Virus record (IMG/VR): IMGVR_UViG_3300032286_000276
Span: 1 to 21,519 of that record
Length of the DNA: 21,519 nucleotides
DNA from: a virus
Direction: 5' to 3' (one strand)
This document shows, piece by piece, positions 7,452-21,519 of the stretch; positions within the stretch are counted from its first letter, which is position 1, and every line of letters begins with the position of its first letter. The notes beneath the pieces were generated by a model, which was not told the DNA's origin, did no database searches, and was given only the letters and a program-made list of their open reading frames with translations. The position numbers and the translations under genes are program-made.

Positions 7452-9407
7452 ATGCCCCTCATTCCGCTGAACATCCCTCCCGGCGTTGTTAGGGCGATTA
7501 CGCCTCTGCAATCCAAGGGGCGCTGGTACGACGCTAACCTTATCCGGTGGCGTTCTGGTGCCTTGCTGCCGGTAGGTGGCTGGGAGCGTATTACCGTTTC
7601 TCCGTTCAGTGCGGCTGTTCGCGGCATCTTCGCTTGGACTACTCCCCTAAACGTCCCTTATGCCGCCATCGGGCTCAGCAATAAGCTGTATGCTCTCGAA
7701 GGCGCGTCTTATACTGACATTACCCCCACAGGGTTTACCGGCGAGACAGAAGGGCTGTACGGAGCCTACGGCGCTGCCGATTATGGCGAGCACTACTACG
7801 GCCTAGATGATCCGACGTACACGATCTTAACGGCTGTGCGGTCTTCTAACGTCGTCACCATTACGACCTCAACCACGCACCAGTTCCAGACTGGAACGTC
7901 GGTTCTGATTGCAGGCGTTACGACATCCAGCTTCAACGGCACGTTCACGATTACGCGCACCGGAAACACGACGTTCACCTACGCGCAGACGGCTGCGAAC
8001 GCGTCTTCGTCTGGAGGAACAGCGAAGCTGCCGATTGTAGATCGTCGCCCTGCGGCTGACGCATTCATCCCTTCCTTTTCGTGGACGTTCGATAACTGGG
8101 GCGGTGATCTTCTCGGCGTCGCTTCTAGCGATGGGCGCTTGCTGCACTTTGATGCCGCCGAAACTGTCGCTAATGAGGCCGGGGTTGAGGGCGTTGTTTC
8201 AGGCTCGCGCGACTCAAACGTAATCACGTTTACAACAAATGCGAATCATGGATACAAAACTGGTGACGTAATCGTTGTAACTGGGAACACAGAATCAGGA
8301 TTTAACGATACATTCACTGTCGTATCTGTTCCTTCGGAGCGTACATTCACAGTCCACGACAACGGACCGGACCGGACCGGGACAGGTGGGGTGGCAAGGA
8401 TTACGCCTGCTTGCCCTCAGAACAACCGCGCGACGATTGTCACGCCTGAGAGGCACGCTGTGCTGATCGGTGCAGGCGGCAATAACAGGCGCGTGGCTTG
8501 GTCTTCTCGCGAAGATTTTACAAATTGGAACTTCGCAAGCACGACGAACACGGCTGGCTTTTTGGATCTCGACACATCCAGCCGTCTAGTGATGTGCGCT
8601 CCGGTGCGCGAAGGAACGCTGATCTGGACGCAGGATGAGGCGTGGCTGATGCGCTACATCGGGCTGCCCTACGTCTACGGGATTGACCGCATCGGCTTCG
8701 GCTGCGGGCTGATCGCTCCCAAGGCGTTCGCGACATACGCAGGCCGCTGCGTTTGGATGGGGACCGAAAGCTTCTGGGTGTATGATGGCGGCGTCATCAA
8801 GCCGCTTGCGTGCGATGTCGGAGCCTACGTGTTCGACAATATCGACCCGGATTATGGTCCGAAATATACGAACGGGTCCGAGAACAACATCTTCCCCGAA
8901 GTTTGGTTCTGGTATCCGTCCCCCGGTTCCTCAACCCCGGATAAGTACGTCATCTACAACTACGCTGAAGGTTGGTGGTCTATCGGATCGATGGACCGTA
9001 CTGCGGCTTATGGCGCAGGCGTGTTCAAGTACCCGCTCGCTGCCGACAGCCTGAACGATCTTTACTATCAGGAAAGTGGTTGGACCGCTGCTGGAGTCCC
9101 AATCGAGACTGATCGCTATGCTACGACTGGTGCGGTGAACATCACGGATGGGAACTCGCTGGTTCATGTTCGCCAGGCGCTGACGGATAGCGGTTACGGG
9201 TACGACAGCACGCAGTTGCAGATGATCACTTCGTTTACGCCTGAAGGCGCGCAGACGACGCATGGCCCGTATCACCCAAGGGCTGACGGTTATACGGACA
9301 TGCGCGCGACAGGGCGGGAGTTCCGCTTGCAGATTGAGGCCACGCAAGATGCCGAGTGGAGCATCGGGCAGATCCGCCTCAACATCATGACTGGGGGCCA
9401 AAGATGA
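7452..9407 (+). CDS. Tail nozzle / packaged-DNA stabilisation protein
   Basis: A 651-residue, largely beta-structured protein that starts directly after the holin-like stop with the opening MPLIPLNIPPGVV, often seen in this family. The core, with segments such as NRRVAWSSREDFTNWN, EGTLIWTQDEAWLMRYIG and YNYAEGWWSIGSM, is typical of proteins with a beta-propeller platform like P22 gp10 and SU10-type nozzles, which close the tail tube beneath the adaptor ring and retain packaged DNA. Two related beta domains are inserted into the N-terminal half (residues 128-193 and 251-317). They may decorate the outside of the nozzle. The family call is from pattern recognition plus gene content, since the lysis cassette separates it from the fibre genes. 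Confidence 0.8.
   Translation: MPLIPLNIPPGVVRAITPLQSKGRWYDANLIRWRSGALLPVGGWERITVSPFSAAVRGIFAWTTPLNVPYAAIGLSNKLYALEGASYTDITPTGFTGETEGLYGAYGAADYGEHYYGLDDPTYTILTAVRSSNVVTITTSTTHQFQTGTSVLIAGVTTSSFNGTFTITRTGNTTFTYAQTAANASSSGGTAKLPIVDRRPAADAFIPSFSWTFDNWGGDLLGVASSDGRLLHFDAAETVANEAGVEGVVSGSRDSNVITFTTNANHGYKTGDVIVVTGNTESGFNDTFTVVSVPSERTFTVHDNGPDRTGTGGVARITPACPQNNRATIVTPERHAVLIGAGGNNRRVAWSSREDFTNWNFASTTNTAGFLDLDTSSRLVMCAPVREGTLIWTQDEAWLMRYIGLPYVYGIDRIGFGCGLIAPKAFATYAGRCVWMGTESFWVYDGGVIKPLACDVGAYVFDNIDPDYGPKYTNGSENNIFPEVWFWYPSPGSSTPDKYVIYNYAEGWWSIGSMDRTAAYGAGVFKYPLAADSLNDLYYQESGWTAAGVPIETDRYATTGAVNITDGNSLVHVRQALTDSGYGYDSTQLQMITSFTPEGAQTTHGPYHPRADGYTDMRATGREFRLQIEATQDAEWSIGQIRLNIMTGGQR
7833..8402 (+). 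repeat. Duplicated beta domain inside the nozzle gene
   Basis: Copy one spans 7833-8030 and copy two 8202-8402. They share the pattern SNV[VI]T, TG-x(2)-[VI]-x-[VI]-x-G, FN-x-TFT, TFT and GG-x-A[KR][LI]. The DNA of copy two is A+T-rich, with 48 G/C in 8221-8340 by hand count. Confidence 0.7.
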
Positions 9408-9634
9408 GAATTGCTATCCCGCCGCCTCCCCCGAATTATGACCCCGGCTATCTCACGCGTTCTTTCGCGTCGGTCGAGCAGTTCGCAGGGTTGACAGTTA
9501 CCCGCATCGAGGCCGTCGATGGGGTTCTTTTGCAGTCGCCTAACGGTTCGGTCTATAAGGTGTCCGTAGATAACGCTGGCAACTTGACAACCACATCGGT
9601 GCCACTTGGACAGAATGGCGCGCCTACTTTCTAA
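9404..9634 (+). CDS. Small hypothetical tail-module protein
   Basis: A 76-residue protein whose ATG overlaps the nozzle stop (ATGA). It opens with a proline run (IPPPPPNYDPG) and continues with a predicted small beta domain whose phrases (VTRIEAVDGVLLQSPNGSVYKVSVDNAGN) look like a compact beta sandwich or short repeat. No cysteine, membrane segment or catalytic motif is present. Overlap with both neighbours suggests translation coupled to the nozzle, and a minor structural role is likely. I do not recognise the family. The frame is open further upstream, but the start chosen is the one with the coupled overlap. Confidence 0.68.
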   Translation: MRIAIPPPPPNYDPGYLTRSFASVEQFAGLTVTRIEAVDGVLLQSPNGSVYKVSVDNAGNLTTTSVPLGQNGAPTF

Positions 9635-9968
9635 GATGCACAACGCTCTCAAGCGGGCGGGTGACACGCATACCGTTGCGGATGTAGTCGAGGCTCTCGA
9701 CACAGGGAAGATGCAAGGTTTCTGGTCCGACAACGCGATGGTCGTGACGCAGATCGTGGATCATCCGAGGAAGCGTGAGTTAAACGTGTTTCTGGCGTTC
9801 GGTGATCTGGATGAGGTGATGGCGCTCCAGCCCCAGATCGCGGATTTCGGGCATAAACACGGGTGCTCTTTTATGGTAATGTCAGGACGGCTGGGGTGGC
9901 AGAAGGTGCTTCCTCGCCATGGTTGGGCAAAAGTCGGCGTGACATACGCCCTGCCGCTGGGAGATTGA
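9615..9968 (+). CDS. Small virion-module protein, possibly GNAT-like
   Basis: A 117-residue protein beginning inside the previous gene (20-base overlap). A TTG three codons upstream at 9606 is an alternative start. The sequence alternates helices and strands: an initial helix to residue 30, then strands such as AMVVTQIVDH and LNVFLAFGD, a helix near ALQPQIADFGHKHGC and a final strand pair with GRLGWQKVLPRHGWAKVGVTY. That order, and the end motif in which a G-W-x-K-V-L segment is followed by G-W, resembles acetyltransferase-like (GNAT) proteins found beside podovirus internal-virion genes. The acetyl-CoA-binding P-loop is not evident, so it could be a degenerate, non-catalytic structural relative. 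Low certainty about fold. Confidence 0.65.
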   Translation: MARLLSKMHNALKRAGDTHTVADVVEALDTGKMQGFWSDNAMVVTQIVDHPRKRELNVFLAFGDLDEVMALQPQIADFGHKHGCSFMVMSGRLGWQKVLPRHGWAKVGVTYALPLGD

Positions 9969-9969
9969 G

Positions 9970-10902
9970 ATGGGCAAAAGTTCAGGGCCTCAGACGACGG
10001 TTCAGAAGACTGAGCTTCCCGAGTGGGTTCAGACCGAAGCGCAGAAGAACCTGCGCATCGCGGATGAGATCGCTTCTCGCCCTTATCAGGCTTACGGCGG
10101 CTCCACAGTGGCGGGCTTCGCTCCCGAGCAGGAGCAGGCGTTCCGTATGGCGCAGGCGAACCTCGGCGCTTACCGTCCTGCGTTGACCGCTGCTACTGGA
10201 GCCGCCGCCCAAGGTGCCTTCTATCAGCCGCAGCAGGTTACGGCTCCGAGCTTCCTGACCGGCAACATCCAAGGCTACATGAACCCCTATCTCGCTGAAG
10301 TCGAGCAGCGGGCTGGAGATGCCCTGCAGCGGCAGCTTGCTCAGACGCAGAACCAGATTGCCTCGCAGGCTGTTCAGGCTCGTGCGTTCGGTGGTTCCCG
10401 GCAGGGTATCCAAGAAGGCGTTGCTGCGGCTGAAGCTTCCCGCGCGATGGGTGATCTTTCGGCCCGTCTGCGGTCTGAAGGCTTCCAACAGGCTGCGGGC
10501 CTTCAGCAGGCAGATCAGGCTCGCGCGATGCAGGCGGCCCTTGCAAACCAGCAGGCCGGTCTTGCGGGTGCGGGGCTTGGGTTGCAGGGCGCTGGTGTGC
10601 TCGGCAACCTCGCCCAGCAGGCTCAGCAGGCTGGCATCACCGATGTCGGCGCGCTCGGGGCTGTTGGCGCACAGCGGCAAGCTCTGGAGCAGCAGCAGCT
10701 TCAGGACGCCTACGCGCGCTTTGCAGAGCAGCGCGATTATCCGACGCAGGCTCTCAACCTGCGTCTCGCGGCTCTCGGTGCTACGCCTTACGGGCAGACC
10801 ACGACGCAGACCGCACCCGGACAGCAGGGCAGCAACCTTCTATCTGGCCTTGGTGGCGCTGGCACGTTCATGGCTGGCCTTGCTGCCCTTGGTACGTTCT
10901 GA
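9970..10902 (+). CDS. Internal virion (ejection) protein, small type
   Basis: A 310-residue protein with GGGAG-like purines upstream of its ATG. It is rich in Ala, Gln and Gly. After a short start with GKSSGPQTTVQKTELPEW, it carries long helices, among them NPYLAEVEQRAGDALQRQLAQ and several Gln/Ala stretches, and ends in a Gly/Leu/Ala-rich hydrophobic tail (about residues 284-310) that could enter a membrane. This composition is common among podovirus ejection proteins, which leave the capsid before the DNA and form a channel through the host envelope. The gene opens a block that also contains a virion transglycosylase and two longer ejection-type proteins. The assignment rests on composition and location. 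Confidence 0.68.
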   Translation: MGKSSGPQTTVQKTELPEWVQTEAQKNLRIADEIASRPYQAYGGSTVAGFAPEQEQAFRMAQANLGAYRPALTAATGAAAQGAFYQPQQVTAPSFLTGNIQGYMNPYLAEVEQRAGDALQRQLAQTQNQIASQAVQARAFGGSRQGIQEGVAAAEASRAMGDLSARLRSEGFQQAAGLQQADQARAMQAALANQQAGLAGAGLGLQGAGVLGNLAQQAQQAGITDVGALGAVGAQRQALEQQQLQDAYARFAEQRDYPTQALNLRLAALGATPYGQTTTQTAPGQQGSNLLSGLGGAGTFMAGLAALGTF

Positions 10903-11591
10903 TGGATACGGCGCTGCTCTTTTCTGGCGGAAAGGACAGCTTAGCCTGCCTGTATCTGTACCGTGATCTATGGGACCGTATGCCCGTCATCTGGGTAAAC
11001 ACGGGCGCTGCGTACCCTGAGATGGTCGAGTACATGGAGGGCTGGAAGAAGCGGCTACCGAACTTCATCGAGGTGAAGTCGGATCAACCATCGAACGTCG
11101 CACAGCACGGCTGGCCAGTTGACGTTCTCCCAGTTCAGAACACGGCTCTCGGCAAGGCTTTGTACGGGTCAGATATTCAGATGATGCAGCCGTACCTGAA
11201 TTGCTGCGCTGAGAACATCTGGTTTCCGTTGCACAAGGCCATCTTGGACTGCGGGGCTACCAAGGCGATCAAGGGGCAGCGTAAGGCTGACGATCACAAG
11301 TCTCCGTCGAAAGATGGAGACACGGTTTACGGCGTTACGATGCTGATGCCGATCTACGACTGGTCTACGCAGCAGGTATTCTCATACCTCAAGGAAGTCG
11401 GTGCTGAGTTGGCTCCCGGCTACTTGCAGGGAGAAAAGACCGGGCGCGACTGTTGGGATTGCACGGCATACCTGAGCGACAACCGGAAGCGTATCGAGAA
11501 CCTGCCGGTGGATAAGAAATTGGAGATCAAGCGGCGTCTTGGTATTATAGACCAAGCAATCCGCACACAGTGGGGGCCGTCTCGTGGCTGA
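10902..11591 (+). CDS. PP-loop ATPase of the PAPS/APS-reductase superfamily with iron-sulfur motif
   Basis: A 229-residue protein starting within the previous stop (TGATG) and overlapping the virion transglycosylase by eight bases. SGGKDS at residues 8-13 is the PP-loop that binds and adenylates substrates. The PIYDWSTQQVFSYL segment (150-163) is typical of PAPS reductase-like proteins. Cys101-Cys102 and Cys184-x-x-Cys187 form a CC-x(81)-CxxC arrangement, the spacing seen for the [4Fe-4S] cluster of assimilatory APS reductases. The C-terminal ECG-type catalytic cysteine of genuine (P)APS reductases is absent; no cysteine follows 187. A sulfur-transfer or nucleic-acid-modifying role (compare DndC, TtcA-type PP-loop proteins) is therefore as plausible as sulfate reduction. 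Substrate unknown. It is an odd guest in an ejection-protein block. Confidence 0.88.
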   Translation: MDTALLFSGGKDSLACLYLYRDLWDRMPVIWVNTGAAYPEMVEYMEGWKKRLPNFIEVKSDQPSNVAQHGWPVDVLPVQNTALGKALYGSDIQMMQPYLNCCAENIWFPLHKAILDCGATKAIKGQRKADDHKSPSKDGDTVYGVTMLMPIYDWSTQQVFSYLKEVGAELAPGYLQGEKTGRDCWDCTAYLSDNRKRIENLPVDKKLEIKRRLGIIDQAIRTQWGPSRG

Positions 11592-12384
11592 CGTAAACAC
11601 AATCGGCTCGTACATCTACAACCGCGCGCGCGAGATCGGCGTTGATCCTAACCTCGCACTTGGGATCGCGCGGTTTGAAGGATTGAACCCGAACACCCTC
11701 GGCTCCCCGACGTTTGGGAACCGTGATGCACGCGGGTATTCCTTCGGCCCGTTCCAGCTTTTCTCCGGCTCCCCTGATCCGACGAAGATCGCTCCTGGCG
11801 GGATGGCCTATGACTTCCAGAAGCGTTTCGGTGAGGCTCCTTCTGCATCTAACTGGCAGAAGCAGGTAGACTTCTCCCTTGATGTTATGCGCCGTCGTGG
11901 AACCTCGCCTTGGTATGCTGTCCGCAATCAAGGTGGCGAAGAGGCAATCACTCAGAAGGGGGCGCAGTTCGCCTCTCAGATCGGCCTCGACCGTGGAGAG
12001 GTTCAGCCCTATCAAGAGCGGCCCATGTCTGCGGATGTGGCGCAGGTCGGCCCTGCTGCTGCTGCCCCTACTCCCGCTCCGCAACCTGCCGCTCCTGTCT
12101 ACGCGACTGATCTCGGGACCACGGCTAGACGGTTCGGCAACTTCCTTGCTCCTAGCTTGGTTGACGCCCCGACGCCTTTGCCGCCTCAAGAGGCGCAGCA
12201 GCAGATAGATGAACAGCGCCGGATGCAAGGCGAATTGTCGCGCGCGAACGACGCAATGCGCGCCTTCTCTGCTTTGTCGTCTTACGGACAGCAGATGGGG
12301 GCGCAGCAGCGCCCGTCCCTGCTTCAGCCTTCCGTTGTTCGTGGGCGTGTAGTGCCGATCCAGATTGGAAGAGGGCTTCTCTGA
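11584..12384 (+). CDS. Virion-associated lytic transglycosylase/lysozyme-like protein
   Basis: A 266-residue protein with a GTG start inside the end of the PP-loop gene (eight-base overlap). Residues 1-110 resemble a lysozyme-fold transglycosylase domain: IYNRAREIGVDPNLALGIAR leads into Phe31-Glu32-Gly33, with Glu32 the likely catalytic acid, and GYSFGPFQLF (51-60) corresponds to the Ser-x-Gly-x-x-Gln element of that fold. Such enzymes are carried in the virion and open a local hole in peptidoglycan when DNA is ejected. The C-terminal half is a Pro/Ala/Gln-rich linker and helical tail without known domains. There is no signal peptide, which suits delivery from the capsid. Placement amid ejection genes supports the role. 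Confidence 0.8.
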   Translation: MADVNTIGSYIYNRAREIGVDPNLALGIARFEGLNPNTLGSPTFGNRDARGYSFGPFQLFSGSPDPTKIAPGGMAYDFQKRFGEAPSASNWQKQVDFSLDVMRRRGTSPWYAVRNQGGEEAITQKGAQFASQIGLDRGEVQPYQERPMSADVAQVGPAAAAPTPAPQPAAPVYATDLGTTARRFGNFLAPSLVDAPTPLPPQEAQQQIDEQRRMQGELSRANDAMRAFSALSSYGQQMGAQQRPSLLQPSVVRGRVVPIQIGRGLL

Positions 12385-14376: not shown

Positions 14377-16362
14377 ATGGCACAAGAAAGCGCACTCGAC
14401 ATCCTGAAGAAATACCAGGGGCAGGCTGGAGGGCAGCAGCGCGACACAGCGACGATCAACGCACAGCTTCGCTCGCGTGCCGGATTGCCTGAGCGGTCTT
14501 CGTTCATCGGTGACGTTCTCTTGCGCCAGATGCTCGGACAGGGCGTGCTCATGGGTGCGGGCGACGAAGCGGAGGCTTATGCCAGATCCGTGGCTCGCGG
14601 GACGAAGTATGAGGACGAACTTTCTGCAATCCGGCAGCAGATGTCGGTTACTCGCGCAGAGCGTCCAATCTCCAGCACCGCAGCAGAAATCGTCGGCGGC
14701 TTCGTCCCAGCAGCGGCGCTTACCGCTGCGACGGCTGGAGCGGCTGCCCCTGTTGCGGCTGCTCGTACTGCTGGCCTTGCTTCCCAGATCGGGCGGCTTG
14801 GGGCTGCCGGTACTCTTGCAGGCACTGCACAGGGCGGGATCGAAGGTTTCGCTAAGTCTGAAGCCCCAACAGCGCAGGGGCGATTGGATAAGGCTTCAGA
14901 AGAGGCGATTCAGGGCGGCATCTTCGGCGGCGCTGTCGGCGCTGCGTTCCCTGCTGTCGCTGGCGCTGCTCGTGCGATCAGGAGAACCCCGGAGGAGTTG
15001 GCATCCGGCATCATGCAGCGCACGTTGCAGCAGGAAAGTCTAACAGCCGAAGAGTTGCTGCGTCGCTATCAGTCCCGGCAGGCGACGGGCGTGAAGCCTG
15101 AGATCCCGGCAGAAGTTCTGCCGCCCGGTAGTTCGCTGGAAGCGCAGTCCCGTCTTGTCGCGCAGGGCGCAGGCGCACAGCGTGGCGGTATTTCAGAGGC
15201 CATGCAGCAGCGCGCTGCGGGACAGCCGACGCGTCTCGCGCAAGAGTTCGAGTCGGCCATCGGCCCTCAGAAGAACGTCTTTGCGTCACTTGATGATCTC
15301 GCGATGGCGCGAGAGCAGATGGCGCGTCCTCTGTACCAGAGGGTAGATCCGGTAATCGCGCGCTCTGATGAGATTGACGATCTCATCAAGAAGGTGCCGC
15401 AAAACATTTTCAATGAGATCGAAAGTGTAGCGAGCATCACTGGCGTGAACCCGTCGAATATCGTTGCTCGTGGTGCGAACAACCAGCGCGAGATCACCCG
15501 GAACTATACTTTTGCGGAGGTGGACTCGATCCAGAAAGCTCTGGACGATGCTGCGGCTTCCGCCTACGCGAGCAACAAGGGCAACCTCGGAACCCAGCTA
15601 AAAGGGTTGCGGGATGATCTCGTATCTGCGGCTGAGAGGAAGAGCCCAGACTACAAGCAGGCTCGCGAAATCTGGGCGGGTTCGCGCGCAGCGGAGCGGC
15701 AGATAAAGGAAGGCCAGAGCATCTTCAAGATGCGGCCAGAGCAGATTGAGCGGAACGTAGCTAAGATGTCGCAGGCCGACAAGGATGCGTATCTTGTCGG
15801 GGTCTTCGATGCTTTCAGCAATGTCCTGAATGGGCGAGTTGTGGGCGAAGACGTGACGCGGGCTTTTCGCACTGGCCGCGCGAAGGAGCAGATGCAGGCT
15901 GCGATCAAAGCCGCGTGGAACGATCCAAACGAGGCAAAGAGGGTGACGGACCAGCTTTTCACGAACATCGAGCGTGAAGCGCGGATGATGTCCAGCCGGA
16001 ACAAGATCCTCGGCGGCTCGCAGACTGCTCAGACGCTGTTGCAGCAAGAAGCTAACGTCTCTGCGATGAACCCGATTGCTGCACTTGCAAGCGATCTGGC
16101 GACCGGTGGTCCTGCCCTTGGCGCTTTCGGTCGCCTCGCCCAGAACGTCGGGCAGGCGTACCAAAAGGGCGCGACGGCAGGGAAGCGAGAAGCAACAAAT
16201 GAGGCTCTTCGCCGCGTCTTGTTTGCTCAGGACGCGCCGACGTTGCAGCGTGAACTTAAAAGGATGGAAGACCTGATGAACCAGCGTGGCTATCAGGCTC
16301 CGACTGGCGCGCGTGCTTTCGTACCGGGCCTGCTTGGGGCCGACATCGCCGGAGCCTTCTAG
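14377..16362 (+). CDS. Large internal virion (ejection) protein
   Basis: A 661-residue protein and the last gene of the late block. The N-terminal part has a soluble helical start, then GDEAEAYARS (62-71) and a run of Ala/Gly-rich hydrophobic segments (about 104-130, 132-153 and 180-200), which could insert into a membrane after ejection. This order is common in prophage and podovirus ejection proteins. The remainder (210-661) is long, charged and alpha-helical, with no enzymatic motif I recognise. It probably forms part of the channel for DNA transfer across the host inner membrane. Its TAG stop lies within the CTAG that also holds the stop of the convergent integrase, so there is no room for a terminator between them. 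Confidence 0.78.
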   Translation: MAQESALDILKKYQGQAGGQQRDTATINAQLRSRAGLPERSSFIGDVLLRQMLGQGVLMGAGDEAEAYARSVARGTKYEDELSAIRQQMSVTRAERPISSTAAEIVGGFVPAAALTAATAGAAAPVAAARTAGLASQIGRLGAAGTLAGTAQGGIEGFAKSEAPTAQGRLDKASEEAIQGGIFGGAVGAAFPAVAGAARAIRRTPEELASGIMQRTLQQESLTAEELLRRYQSRQATGVKPEIPAEVLPPGSSLEAQSRLVAQGAGAQRGGISEAMQQRAAGQPTRLAQEFESAIGPQKNVFASLDDLAMAREQMARPLYQRVDPVIARSDEIDDLIKKVPQNIFNEIESVASITGVNPSNIVARGANNQREITRNYTFAEVDSIQKALDDAAASAYASNKGNLGTQLKGLRDDLVSAAERKSPDYKQAREIWAGSRAAERQIKEGQSIFKMRPEQIERNVAKMSQADKDAYLVGVFDAFSNVLNGRVVGEDVTRAFRTGRAKEQMQAAIKAAWNDPNEAKRVTDQLFTNIEREARMMSSRNKILGGSQTAQTLLQQEANVSAMNPIAALASDLATGGPALGAFGRLAQNVGQAYQKGATAGKREATNEALRRVLFAQDAPTLQRELKRMEDLMNQRGYQAPTGARAFVPGLLGADIAGAF

Positions 16363-17249
16363 GTCAGTAACCCCTCCACCGCATCCGCAAGTTCGGCATC
16401 ATCGGAGGCGAAGACGTGGGCATAGGTTCGCAGCGTCGTGGTCACATCGGAGTGGCCAAGGCGCTGCGAAACTGCTTTTACCGGCAACTTCTTTCGCAGC
16501 AAGGCTGTGGCGTGGGAGTGTCGGGCTGAATGAAGGCAGTAACCCGCACCCAGCCCGACTGCCTGCATCGCTTCAGTCACTGCGCGGGAGAGGTGCGCGA
16601 GCGATGGGCGTTCGCCGCTGCGCGAGAGGAGGAGGGGAGCGTCAGCGGTCCTTGATAGTACCCGTAACTCTTCCGCGATGCTAGGAGGCAGGCTGACGAC
16701 ACGCACGCCCGCCGCCGACTTCGGCTTGCTCTCGATCTCGCATCCGCCAATCTTTACGATTGCCTTGGTGACGAAGAGCTTCCCCGCGATCAGATCCAGA
16801 TCCCGCCCTCGTAAGGCCAGCAACTCGCCGCGTCTTAGACCCGTAGCGAGCGCGAGGCGGATCGCGAGCCCCACCATAGGCTTGTCAGCGACGTAAGCGA
16901 GAAGCCGACGCATCTGTTCTTCGTCCAACGCCTTGCGTTCTGCTGCCGCCTTGCGGGGCTGCGTCACCTTGGACATGGGAGAAGTGGGCGACATCCCCTG
17001 TTCAACGGCCCACTTGAAGAAGCCGCAAAGCACCTGATGAGCCGTTCGCACGGTTGAGGCAGAGCAGGTTCGCAGGCGCTCGATGTACCACAGGGTGACG
17101 GCCTGCGGCGTGATCTCGGCCACGTCTTTCGCGCCGTGGAGCCGCAGGAAGTCGGCGCAGAACTCGCTGTAATTCTGCGCAGTTTTCGGCCCGATGAGCC
17201 CAAGGCCACGCCGCTCGGTCAGCCACTGGTTAAAGGCGCTTCTCAACAT
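16359..17249 (-). CDS. int: Tyrosine recombinase (phage integrase)
   Basis: A 296-residue site-specific recombinase that would integrate and excise the phage at attP/attB. The core-binding SAM-like domain covers about residues 1-95. The catalytic domain has Arg139 (in TGLRRGEL), Lys177 (in PKSAAGVR), His240-x-x-Arg243 (in LHSARHSHAT), His266 (in RLGHSD) and the nucleophile Tyr276 (in LRTYAHV), so all expected catalytic residues are present. There is no N-terminal arm-binding domain of obvious size, as the protein is shorter than lambda Int. It is the only gene on the - strand. It converges on the ejection gene with a four-base overlap and diverges from the early operon across 82 bases. Presence of an intact integrase indicates a temperate lifestyle. 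Confidence 0.95.
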   Translation of the reverse strand: MLRSAFNQWLTERRGLGLIGPKTAQNYSEFCADFLRLHGAKDVAEITPQAVTLWYIERLRTCSASTVRTAHQVLCGFFKWAVEQGMSPTSPMSKVTQPRKAAAERKALDEEQMRRLLAYVADKPMVGLAIRLALATGLRRGELLALRGRDLDLIAGKLFVTKAIVKIGGCEIESKPKSAAGVRVVSLPPSIAEELRVLSRTADAPLLLSRSGERPSLAHLSRAVTEAMQAVGLGAGYCLHSARHSHATALLRKKLPVKAVSQRLGHSDVTTTLRTYAHVFASDDAELADAVEGLLT

Positions 17250-17804: not shown

Positions 17805-18076
17805 ACAACAAACTTCAATCCATTATCGACCGCATCGAGAAGCTGGAGGACGACCGCGCGCTTCTCGCTGCTGACATCAAGGAGATCTTCACTGAGGCGA
17901 AGTCGAACGGCTTCGACGTGAAGATCATCCGCAAGGTGCTGGCTATCCGCAAGAAGGATGCTGAAGAGCGCGACATCGAGCAGACGCTGATTGATTTTTA
18001 CATGGCTTCGCTTGGGATGCTGGCGGACACGCCGCTTGGTCAGGCTGCGATCTCGCGTGCAAGGGGTGAGCAATGA
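17801..18076 (+). CDS. gapR: GapR family DNA-binding protein (DUF2312)
   Basis: A 91-residue protein that overlaps the DUF6378 gene by four bases. Residues 5-62 carry the family pattern: IIDRIEKLEDDRALLAADIKE, then EAKSNGFDVKIIRKVLAIRKKD and EER. Family members in alphaproteobacteria, such as Caulobacter GapR, are nucleoid-associated, encircle overtwisted AT-rich DNA and help replication by supporting topoisomerases. A phage copy could aid phage DNA replication or compete with the host protein. The length agrees with the family. It is coupled to the next gene, a methyltransferase, by another ATGA overlap. This gene is the best hint for an alphaproteobacterial host. Confidence 0.9.
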   Translation: MNNKLQSIIDRIEKLEDDRALLAADIKEIFTEAKSNGFDVKIIRKVLAIRKKDAEERDIEQTLIDFYMASLGMLADTPLGQAAISRARGEQ

Positions 18077-18849
18077 CAACTTGGATGAAGACGCAGACCT
18101 TCTTCAGAAGGCCGATCTACGTTGCGATGGAAGATGAGGGCGTATCCTCCAGCATCATCCATACAGGCGGGTGGGAAAGCCACATCGAGAAGTACATCAT
18201 TGAGAACATGCCAGTCGATGGCGTGTTCCTTGATGTGGGAGCGAACCTCGGCTCCTTCTCTCTTCTAGCTGCGAATAAGATGCAGGAAGATCGCAGCAGC
18301 GGGCGTGTGATCGCTGTGGAGGCTAACCCAATTGTTCTTCCCTACCTCATGGCGTCGATTGTCGAGAGCGGTCTGGAGCATCGCATCGATGTCATTCCCT
18401 ACGCCGCATCTGACAACAGCGGGCTCGTACAGATGCAGGAGAGCTTCGGTGACAATCTCGGTGGCGTGCCGATGAAAGGGTTGTGGGAAATTGCCCCAGC
18501 AAAAGGCAGAAAGGTGATTCCAACTGTGGAGCTTGATAACATCCTCGTAGATCTAACTCGACTGGATCTCGTCAAGATGGACATCGAAGGCGCGGAGCCA
18601 AAAGCCATCGAAGGAATGTCTGGCCTTCTTCATAAGTTCTCGCCCGACATCATCATGGAAATCAACGCGGATTGTCTCCGAGGTGTCTCCAATCTTTCGG
18701 TAGCTGGGATGGTCGAGCAGATGGAGTTCCACGGCTACAAACCGCACACGTTCAGATACGATGTTGAGCCTGTGACAAAGGAAGAAGTTGTCGGAATTGT
18801 GAGTTCGCACAATTACTACGACTTCTTGTTCTCGAAAAAGATGGGTTGA
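18073..18849 (+). CDS. FkbM-family SAM-dependent methyltransferase
   Basis: A 258-residue enzyme with a Rossmann-fold methyltransferase core. Motif I is FLDVGANLGSF (52-62), the acidic end of strand two is Glu83 (in VIAVEANP), and KMDIEGAE (168-175) is the signature shared by FkbM-type O-methyltransferases. These enzymes usually methylate hydroxyl groups of sugars or small molecules. In a phage, such a gene might modify surface glycans (lysogenic conversion) or phage components, but its acceptor cannot be read from the sequence. Several stretches, especially toward the 3' end, are notably A+T-richer (24 of 60 G/C at 18781-18840) than structural genes, which suggests separate acquisition. It is coupled to gapR by an ATGA overlap. 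Confidence 0.9.
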   Translation: MTTWMKTQTFFRRPIYVAMEDEGVSSSIIHTGGWESHIEKYIIENMPVDGVFLDVGANLGSFSLLAANKMQEDRSSGRVIAVEANPIVLPYLMASIVESGLEHRIDVIPYAASDNSGLVQMQESFGDNLGGVPMKGLWEIAPAKGRKVIPTVELDNILVDLTRLDLVKMDIEGAEPKAIEGMSGLLHKFSPDIIMEINADCLRGVSNLSVAGMVEQMEFHGYKPHTFRYDVEPVTKEEVVGIVSSHNYYDFLFSKKMG

Positions 18850-18862
18850 GCCCTGCGGCTTG

Positions 18863-18902
18863 CTTGGCCTAAAATGCCGGGCTTTGCTTGGCTTAGGCCA
18901 AG
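18863..18902. repeat. Ten-base inverted repeat in the gap between methyltransferase and secreted transglycosylase
   Basis: CTTGGCCTAA (18863-18872) and TTAGGCCAAG (18893-18902) are perfect inverted arms separated by 20 bases. In addition TGCTTGGCCTA (18861-18871) is repeated directly as TGCTTGGCTTA (18885-18895). No T tract follows, so it does not look like a standard terminator. It could be an operator or a messenger structure controlling the downstream gene. Confidence 0.6.
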
Positions 18903-18921
18903 GCCCACTGGAGACTTTGTA

Positions 18922-19467
18922 ATGAAGAAGATCGCTTTGGCTTTGATCCTTTCTGCTACTCCCGCAATGGCTGACCAGTCGCACGCGGATTACTGGAGGG
19001 AAGAAGCCGCGAGACAGGTTGCAAAGCCTGTCGCTTCTCAGAGGACTGTCCGGTCTTCGCCTGAGCGTGCGCACGTCAAGAAGATCGTCGCTGACGAGGC
19101 GCGCAAGCAGTTGGGAGAAAAGTGGGTGCCTGTGGCGTTGCAGATTGCCTACGTCGAGTCGCGGTTTAATCCTGCGGCTGTAGGACCAAAAACGCGGCAT
19201 GGTCGCGCGCAAGGTGTGATGCAGGTGATGCCTGGGACAGCGCGGGCCATGGGGTACGATCCTGCACGATTGAGGGATGCAAGTTACGGAGCGTCTGCTG
19301 GCGTTGCGCACATGCGGTTGTGCATCGCCAGCGGTGTGCGCACAGAACACCAGATGGCCTTGTGCCATGTGTCTGGTGTTGGCGGTTGGAAGCGGCGGCT
19401 GAGTGATAGGGACGAACGGTACAAGACCAAGTACACGGCGCTTGTAAGAAATGCGCGCGTTTATTGA
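18922..19467 (+). CDS. Secreted lytic transglycosylase (SLT/lysozyme-like)
   Basis: A 181-residue protein with start ATG at 18922, chosen because it begins a clear signal peptide (MKKIALALILSATPAMA, likely cut after Ala17) and has GGAG eight bases upstream. A longer in-frame start at 18874 lacks this fit. The mature protein has an SLT domain (about residues 60-150): VALQIAYVESRFNP with catalytic Glu79, and AQGVMQVMPGTARAMGY, the Gly-x-Met-Gln-x-Met-Pro-x-Thr-Ala signature. Two cysteines (in LCIASG and ALCHVSG) may form a disulfide, as expected for a periplasmic protein. It would cleave glycan strands with 1,6-anhydro product. Since it is not in the lysis or virion block, a role in the lysogen or in superinfection control is conceivable. 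Confidence 0.88.
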   Translation: MKKIALALILSATPAMADQSHADYWREEAARQVAKPVASQRTVRSSPERAHVKKIVADEARKQLGEKWVPVALQIAYVESRFNPAAVGPKTRHGRAQGVMQVMPGTARAMGYDPARLRDASYGASAGVAHMRLCIASGVRTEHQMALCHVSGVGGWKRRLSDRDERYKTKYTALVRNARVY

Positions 19468-19478
19468 GGGGAGAGAAG

Positions 19479-19919
19479 ATGGAAACGCAAGACTGGGCGG
19501 CTCACTATCGTGAAGTCCGCGCACGGATAAGCACGCCTGCATCTCTGGCACGCAAGCAAGCGGTTTGCCCGAGTCCGCCGAAGCCGAAGATTGAGACGAG
19601 AGATGCTGTTGCGAAACGGCGGCTTTCAGAACTGATGTATGGTCTCCCACAGTGTTCTGATGATCTGCGCTTTTCAATCCAGCAGATCCTGATCGCCTAC
19701 GATACGCCATGGCTCGGGATCGTCGGGCGCAGCCGGTTCTATTCCCGCCAGCCTCCTCGGCGTGCGGTCACATGGCTGCTGCATCTTCGTGGCTGGAGCA
19801 CGCCGCAGATAGGAAGATTTATCAGGCGCGATCACACAACAGTGGTTCATTCGTTGCAGCAAGTGAACTCCCTCAACGTCCGTCAGGTCAAGACGAGAGG
19901 CGAGGCGTTCTGGCTATGA
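19479..19919 (+). CDS. Small protein with DnaA-domain-IV-like DNA-binding C-terminus
   Basis: A 146-residue protein. The ATG at 19479 follows a GGGGAGAG ribosome binding site; an upstream TTG (19464) is less likely. Residues 1-45 are charged and probably disordered. A helical middle (46-75) leads to residues 94-128, where RRAVTWLLHLRGWSTPQIGR and the following RRDHTTVVHS reproduce the domain IV signature of the chromosomal initiator DnaA (helix-turn-helix plus Asp118-His119-Thr120-Thr121), which reads DnaA boxes. The AAA+ ATPase part is missing entirely, so it is not a complete initiator. It could bind the phage origin, recruit or block host DnaA, or be a regulator. It overlaps the next gene by four bases. 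Confidence 0.82.
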   Translation: METQDWAAHYREVRARISTPASLARKQAVCPSPPKPKIETRDAVAKRRLSELMYGLPQCSDDLRFSIQQILIAYDTPWLGIVGRSRFYSRQPPRRAVTWLLHLRGWSTPQIGRFIRRDHTTVVHSLQQVNSLNVRQVKTRGEAFWL

Positions 19920-20795: not shown

Positions 20796-21058
20796 TGGAC
20801 AATTGCATAACGTGCAAGTTCGCACCGGTTAAGACGGGCGGCTACTTCATGTGCCACCGCTTCCCGCAGTCGCAGCGTGTGACACGGGATTATTGGTGTG
20901 GAGAGTGGAGTGCTGAAGCAGCCAAGGAGACCATCAATGCAAATCATCAAGGATCTACCCGCAAGCGAGTATCACAAAATCAGGGCGCTGAGCGCGTCGT
21001 CAGCGAAAGTGTTGCTGCGGAGCCCGCTGCATTACCTAGCATCTCTGAGCAGCCCTAA
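20795..21058 (+). CDS. Small zinc-ribbon-like protein with long overlap into the nuclease gene
   Basis: An 87-residue protein starting one base before the end of the previous stop, after GGAGGAG. Residues 4-38 hold Cys4-x2-Cys7, Cys20 and Cys35 in the order of a small zinc-binding domain that recurs in phage early regions, ending in WCGEW. From residue 48 on, the sequence (Gln, Ser, Glu, Ala-rich) reads through the first 122 bases of the nuclease gene in another frame and has no domain-like character. The functional part is likely limited to the first 45 residues. Confidence 0.7.
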   Translation: MDNCITCKFAPVKTGGYFMCHRFPQSQRVTRDYWCGEWSAEAAKETINANHQGSTRKRVSQNQGAERVVSESVAAEPAALPSISEQP

Positions 21059-21519
21059 AGAGCCGTCGGCAGCGATGCGGCTCGGGACGCTGTGCCACAC
21101 GCTGGTGTTCGAACCGCATAAATTCGAAGAAGAGTTCGCCGTAGCGCCTCGCGTGGACAAGCGCACGAAGTTCGGCAAGGAAGCCCTCGCCAACTTCGAG
21201 GAGGAGCACGAGGGAAAGCTGGTCATCGATGAGTTTCAGTACGAGAAGGCGAAAGCGATTGCTGCGGCTGCTCTCAATCACCCGATGGTGATGGAGTACA
21301 TGGTCGGCGGAAGCGCGGAAGCCACGATGCTGTGGGAGCAGTATGGTGTCCCGTGCAAGGCTCGCGTGGATTATCTGTGCGGGGACGTGATGTTCGACCT
21401 GAAGACGTGCCAGGATGCTACGCCCGGCGGCTTCTCTAGGCAGATCGGCACGTTTCAGTATCACATCCAAGCTGCGCACTACGCGAACGGCTACGAGGCG
21501 ATCACGGGCAGGCCGCTCA
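20937..21519 (+). CDS. RecE/exonuclease VIII-like PD-(D/E)XK nuclease, N-terminal part (3' end outside window)
   Basis: The first 194 codons of a nuclease that runs off the window. AAGGAG sits seven bases before its ATG. The start SASSAKVLLRSPLHYL and the G50-T-L-C-H54 element match the PDDEXK-like domain of exodeoxyribonuclease VIII (DUF3799). The catalytic core shows Asp145 (in KARVDYL), Asp154-x-Lys156 (in VMFDLKTC) and the late Gln174 to Tyr182 helix (QYHIQAAHY). Such 5'-3' double-strand exonucleases work with a single-strand annealing protein in phage recombination and replication; that partner would be expected further downstream. It overlaps the zinc-ribbon gene by 122 bases in a different frame. 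Confidence 0.88.
   Translation, partial: MQIIKDLPASEYHKIRALSASSAKVLLRSPLHYLASLSSPKEPSAAMRLGTLCHTLVFEPHKFEEEFAVAPRVDKRTKFGKEALANFEEEHEGKLVIDEFQYEKAKAIAAAALNHPMVMEYMVGGSAEATMLWEQYGVPCKARVDYLCGDVMFDLKTCQDATPGGFSRQIGTFQYHIQAAHYANGYEAITGRPL

Follow-up and report, generated by a model that had tools for sequence, protein, structure and literature searches.

In a viral stretch of 21,519 nucleotides (IMG/VR record IMGVR_UViG_3300032286_000276, hereafter the window), a PP-loop protein is encoded immediately 3′ of a DNA-ejection protein, and in three families of ejection proteins a gene of this PP-loop family and a C-terminal Peptidase_S74 tail on the ejection protein replace one another and never occur together. 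On balance, we favour the reading that the product is an ATP-binding enzyme of the PP-loop type, specific to phages and probably carrying a [4Fe-4S] cluster, that would replace in trans the S74 tail carried in cis by other ejection proteins, a judgement drawn from comparisons of sequence and gene order.

The motifs that a sequence-only reading of the window had listed, an SGGKDS loop, a CC pair and a CxxC, are all present in the ORF (Table 1), with 81 residues separating C102 from C184, further cysteines at C16 and C117 only, and none after residue 187. The protein scores 60.7 bits against the PF01507 profile, above the gathering cut-off of 22.5, and 38 of 38 family members tested match the same profile. 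In an alignment of 70 distinct homologues, P109, G125, P150, D183 and Y190 are invariant besides the serines, glycines and aspartate of the loop and the four cysteines, and a C-terminal ECG-type cysteine after the CxxC is not conserved. Because these residues are invariant in the 70 homologues and dN/dS among relatives of the gene is 0.07–0.32, they are not a product of chance. The loop is of the intact, adenylating type, as had been proposed, and the likeness to the cysteine arrangement of APS reductases also held up: CC and CxxC fall in the same alignment columns as those of bona fide APS reductases and could hold a cluster. The conserved residues suggest that the protein probably carries a [4Fe-4S] cluster on CC/CxxC.

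Table 1. Features of the PP-loop locus in the window.
Feature	Coordinates	Strand	Basis
Virion structural (stabilisation) protein heading the block	7452..9407	+	phrog_3287, 8.6e-87
Small conserved protein, late block	9356..9634	+	Synteny in most loci
Small GNAT-like protein 5′ of the ejection gene, TTG start	9606..9968	+	phrog_22172; acetyltransferase annotated at that position in other phages
DNA-ejection protein, 310 aa, without the S74 tail found in many relatives that lack the PP-loop gene	9970..10902	+	phrog_4287, 2.9e-30; alignment
Hydrophobic C-terminus of the ejection protein (AGTFMAGLAALGTF)	10858..10899	+	Ends where relatives start the S74 domain; survey of C-terminal residues
PP-loop protein, 229 aa	10902..11591	+	PF01507 fold family, not reductase; about 70 distinct phage homologues
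SGGKDS PP-loop motif, residues 8–13	10923..10940	+	S8, G9, G10, D12 and S13 invariant in 70/70; K11 in 94%
CC, residues 101–102, putative cluster ligands	11202..11207	+	Invariant in 70/70; column common to APS reductases and archaeal SGGKDS relatives
CxxC (CWDC), residues 184–187, putative cluster ligands	11451..11462	+	Invariant in 70/70; column common to APS reductase, DndC and SspD
Downstream internal-virion-type protein, GTG start	11584..12384	+	Conserved position; equivalent gene in MW202711 annotated 'internal virion protein'

The PP-loop gene is tightly packed between its neighbours. The stop codon of the upstream gene and the PP-loop start share one nucleotide (TGATG), and the upstream ORF is a DNA-ejection protein by its PHROGs match, so the gene does adjoin an ejection gene, as had been stated. 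At its 3′ end, the gene overlaps the next one by 8 nucleotides (11584–11591). The sequence-only reading had taken this as coupling to a transglycosylase gene; the overlap is real, but the identity of the downstream gene is not borne out, as neither Pfam nor PHROGs gave a match for it. The location is conserved in related phages: among 116 distinct viral loci, the upstream stop and the PP-loop start overlap by 1 nucleotide in 63 and by 4 nucleotides in 42, together 105. Most loci keep the order stabilisation protein, small protein, GNAT-like protein, ejection protein, PP-loop protein, internal virion protein. A pairwise search among the upstream proteins of 28 diverged loci sorted them into five groups and detected no similarity from one group to another, yet the PP-loop gene follows an ejection-type gene, save in a few loci with an interposed gene. 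In most loci a GNAT-like gene precedes the ejection gene, which made a functional pairing of its small product (no Pfam match for the window copy) with the PP-loop protein attractive; yet this gene occurs with and without the PP-loop gene and is equally present in phages of the S74 type, and the pairing is not PP-specific. Proteomics of JC1 virions picked up gp64, the ejection protein, and not gp65, the PP-loop protein; such non-detection fits an assembly factor, equally any non-structural enzyme, and is no proof of the former.

Further along, the window encodes a minus-strand tyrosine recombinase (16359–17249; Phage_integrase, 5.8e-21), which hints at a possibly temperate phage; the window has no tRNA that could act as an integration site. 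The plus strand also carries an FkbM-type methyltransferase 3′ of the virion genes (18073–18849, 2.2e-13), a protein with an SLT transglycosylase domain (18874–19467, 3.6e-09) that is separate from the gene at 11584, an ORF at 19464–19919 whose match to the DnaA C-terminal HTH is slightly below the cut-off, and a DUF3799 PDDEXK-like nuclease (20898–21518) that is cut by the end of the window.

Searches with the ejection protein brought up relatives that have no PP-loop gene and bear an extra C-terminal tail, identified by Pfam as Peptidase_S74 (PF13884), the chaperone of endosialidase. In the three ejection families pooled, 110 distinct proteins have the S74 tail only, 112 the PP-loop gene only, none both and 51 neither. 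Family A, in which the PP-positive loci were gathered by PP-loop search, comprises 145 distinct ejection proteins: 33 with S74 only, 82 with the PP-loop gene only, 30 with neither and none with both, as opposed to 18.7 expected. Families B and C were gathered with ejection-protein queries, the seed alignments of which included both types, and give 34 S74 only, 15 PP-loop only, 0 both and 12 neither for family B, and 43, 15, 0 and 9, respectively, for the Bcep22-like family C; Fisher tests, which ignore kinship among the sequences, yield p = 2e-7 and 4e-9. On supported tree branches, the PP-loop state changes at least seven times in A and at least four times each in B and C. Over 15 independent pairs, S74 moves opposite to the PP-loop gene in about 12.6 and in the same direction in none. 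Tree-aware tests have median p values of 0.06, 0.125 and 0.125, none reaching 0.05 alone, and the three families summed give p ~5e-4 by a rough sign test. The exchange can be seen in a near-isogenic pair, L002 (PP-loop) and L085 (S74), which share 91% nucleotide identity until near the 3′ end of the ejection gene. Neither feature is indispensable, because about 51 ejection proteins, including that of L264, which is closely related to both types, have neither. No fusion of the PP-loop protein with an ejection or S74 domain occurs among all the ORFs collected. We found no earlier description of this alternation in the literature searched, which covered few subscription papers.

The two features meet at the same point of the ejection protein. 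The Ser–Lys (i, i+5) pair, which is the catalytic dyad of ICA domains, is kept in 129 of 129 S74 tails. In the homologous ICA domain of MyRF, the cut falls immediately before the dyad serine, P586/S587 (PMC8326128). S74/ICA domains, such as those of endosialidases and MYRF, trimerise, aid the folding of the upstream protein and then self-cleave (PMC3742440, PMC8326128). The end of PP-type ejection proteins coincides with the expected beginning of the S74 domain and of its predicted cleavage site: those of Burkholderia phages end in GTIAGAGIMAF where Serratia phage Parlo reads GSIAGMGLMAF/SSKDYKED, and the window protein ends in MAGLAALGTF where L085 reads ASGLASLFAL/SDRNEK. The last residue before the PP-loop gene is F in 52 loci, L in 48, M in 7, I in 3 and Y in 3, accounting for 113 of 116, the other three having a different upstream ORF; in families B and C, it is F in 14 PP-type proteins and Y in one, in each family. 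Ejection proteins with neither feature mostly end in R, G or S. Some of these (L282, L290, L297, L300, L310 and relatives) have a glycine-zipper-like LGGALAG tail at the end, and several of the corresponding genes are directly followed by a conserved ORF of about 150 amino acids. With the stop of the PP type at the predicted S74 cleavage point and a hydrophobic last residue, the free C-terminus would be of the same hydrophobic kind in the two types.

These observations suggest a model in which the PP-loop protein would serve the DNA-ejection protein encoded immediately 5′ of it and do in trans the job of the C-terminal S74 chaperone and auto-cleavage domain. The S74 domain would shield the hydrophobic, Gly/Ala-rich end of these proteins. 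Since the PP-loop gene starts at the point where S74 would and is present only where S74 is absent, we infer that its product acts on this end: it may bind, chaperone or modify the ejection protein at the expense of ATP, most likely at the hydrophobic C-terminus, either as a non-covalent chaperone or as a C-terminal modifying enzyme. The two would share a genomic spot and a client but not ancestry, as Peptidase_S74 is an unrelated domain that works in cis, cuts itself off and has no PP-loop, and PF13884 gives no match in the window PP-loop protein. Read from sequence, the alternation, the stop at the S74 boundary, the 1- and 4-nucleotide coupling, the hydrophobic last residue and the conserved ATP site and cysteines are what supports the ejection protein as partner.

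The main alternative is that the PP-loop gene has no functional tie to its neighbour, the 3′ end of the ejection gene being a recombination junction that receives either an S74 tail or a stop with a PP-loop cassette. We consider this improbable though a serious contender, and the alternation could partly reflect such a shared recombination cassette. The cassette boundaries are clean, with conserved flanks, in a PP-loop locus (L063, 7983/8683), an S74 locus (L255, 787/1026) and the locus with neither (L264, 2386/2414), and the existence of this third, empty state in close relatives also favours it. On the other hand, the slot behind S74-tailed proteins takes other genes (Pavtok gp25, Parlo 079, SopranoGao 8 and Skulduggery 26), never the PP-loop family, which weakens mere competition for the downstream position. 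Moreover, the PP-loop family is absent from the entire sequence of 49 of 49 S74-type phage records, in a search in which the positive control, BcepMigl, scored 276 bits; apart from this control, five records have only weak, partial matches of 15–22 bits to other PP-loop proteins. Parlo, an S74-type phage, does have a PP-loop protein, but a distant and different one (L356, MK618715.1, 10063–10737; a 347-amino-acid frame) that matches the present family weakly, at 16–20 bits. Reciprocally, any S74 domain is missing from 17 of the 20 PP-type records, and in the remaining three, from Bcep22-like phages, the S74 match falls within the tail-fibre region, 5′ of the ejection gene, as in JC1, which bears S74 on gp57 and gp59. 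A shared slot would also have to accommodate the repetition of the alternation in three ejection families without obvious mutual sequence similarity and the constraint on the last residue of the neighbouring ejection protein.

Within the ejection-partner reading, a more specific and speculative version is that the PP-loop/Fe–S enzyme adenylates the C-terminal carboxylate of the ejection protein and then modifies it, producing the mature state that other ejection proteins would reach by S74 auto-cleavage; in this exact form, we regard it as unlikely. Modification of the C-terminus as such is chemically plausible because the QueC-family PP-loop proteins QatC and Cap9 act on protein termini (PMC13279940). 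Their target is N-terminal and their context is defence, as opposed to the C-terminal target proposed for the phage enzyme. The PADLOC QueC profile weakly matches residues 145–190 of the window protein and is matched by 36 of 38 family members, and the Cap9 chain aligns with the window protein at E = 0.009; at 15.3 bits against a cut-off of 22 for QueC PF06508, the similarity is too weak for membership.

The sequence-only reading had instead suggested sulfur transfer to nucleic acid, in which DNA or tRNA would be adenylated and receive sulfur from the cluster, as in DndC, SspD or TtcA-type enzymes. The SGGKDS loop and four cysteines would suit such a role, the cysteine columns are partly common with DndC/SspD, and there is weak profile similarity to BrxP and to SspD (27 of 38 members, best 7.6e-11). 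However, the SspD match of the window protein stands at E = 0.0085, the DndC profile is matched by only 4 of 38 members, the phage family lies outside the DndC and SspD clades, and DndC and SspD, similar in SGGKDS and CxxC, have WCT where the phage family has CC. No companion thiolation gene, such as DndD/E, SspB/C or a desulfurase, was noticed alongside, the annotated neighbours in named phages being structural or hypothetical, and the exclusion with a virion-protein chaperone domain would be left unexplained. Thiolation, for which nothing specific speaks in the case of DNA, appears unlikely, and the ejection protein is the likelier partner because the PP-loop gene swaps with the S74 domain in three ejection families. 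The same SGGKDS, CC and CxxC set occurs in archaeal PF01507 proteins from methanogens and others (for example, L145, L147 and L201), which by profile rank with the nearest cellular sequences but are longer, form a separate clade and have the CC at +74, as opposed to +93 in the phage family. In the mostly archaeal loci L145–L212, largely from methanogens, the proteins also have additional cysteines at the N-terminus and ferredoxin-like CxxC motifs towards the C-terminus.

That the protein does not reduce (P)APS, as the sequence-only reading had concluded, is upheld on several grounds. Assimilatory APS reductases (CysH, TIGR02055) share with the phage family the PF01507 fold and the CC/CxxC columns, but have a degenerate loop, SLGAED or SFGAES, and an ECG(L/I)H cysteine (references L221 and L233), where the phage family has SGGKDS and no ECG cysteine. 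The window protein scores far below the cut-offs of the CysH-type NCBIfam models (25.1 bits against 235.3 for TIGR02055, 28.4 against 165.1 for TIGR00434 and 24.2 against 254.2 for TIGR02057). In a quick tree of 87 PP-loop proteins, whose deep order is unresolved, the phage proteins form a single clade (support 99), separate from APSR (99), CysD, SspD (100), DndC (most members, 97), TtcA and the archaeal SGGKDS+CC+CxxC group (94), which places the window protein outside the true APS/PAPS reductases. The predicted structure (pLDDT 90.4) matches 7rge, of the PAPS-reductase/CysD fold (VIA Z 15.4, r.m.s.d. 3.2 over 161 residues), CysD 1zun (Z 14.5, r.m.s.d. 2.4 over 140 residues) and the APS reductases 2goy and 7lhs (VIA Z 13.5–14.0); likeness of fold alone does not reveal the activity. 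By the intact loop, the absent ECG cysteine, the missed curated cut-offs and the phage-only clade, the window protein is not an APS/PAPS reductase. An auxiliary sulfur-assimilation gene supplying reduced sulfur, as annotated in Burkholderia phages (PMC9144972) and in PHROG 424/2302, is accordingly highly improbable: the PF01507, PHROG 424 and fold matches (Z 13.5–15.4) agree with it, but the loop, the missing cysteine, the scores, the separate clade and a location locked to the ejection gene do not.

Phage 'PAPS reductase' genes are commonly taken as auxiliary metabolic genes that feed host sulfur metabolism. This view is probably wrong at least for the present family, whose gene is a fixed component of the ejection cassette and trades places with a chaperone domain of a virion protein. 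What is new is the position of the gene directly 3′ of the ejection gene together with its mutual exclusion with the S74 tail, which names the C-terminus of the ejection protein as the candidate partner. How hydrophobic ejection proteins stay competent until genome entry is poorly understood, and the near-isogenic natural pairs are suited to its study. If the C-terminus is indeed modified, an ATP-dependent enzyme would mature the ejection protein post-translationally, masked so far by the 'PAPS reductase' label, and the family would join Cap9 and QatC among the few known PP-loop enzymes that act on protein termini.
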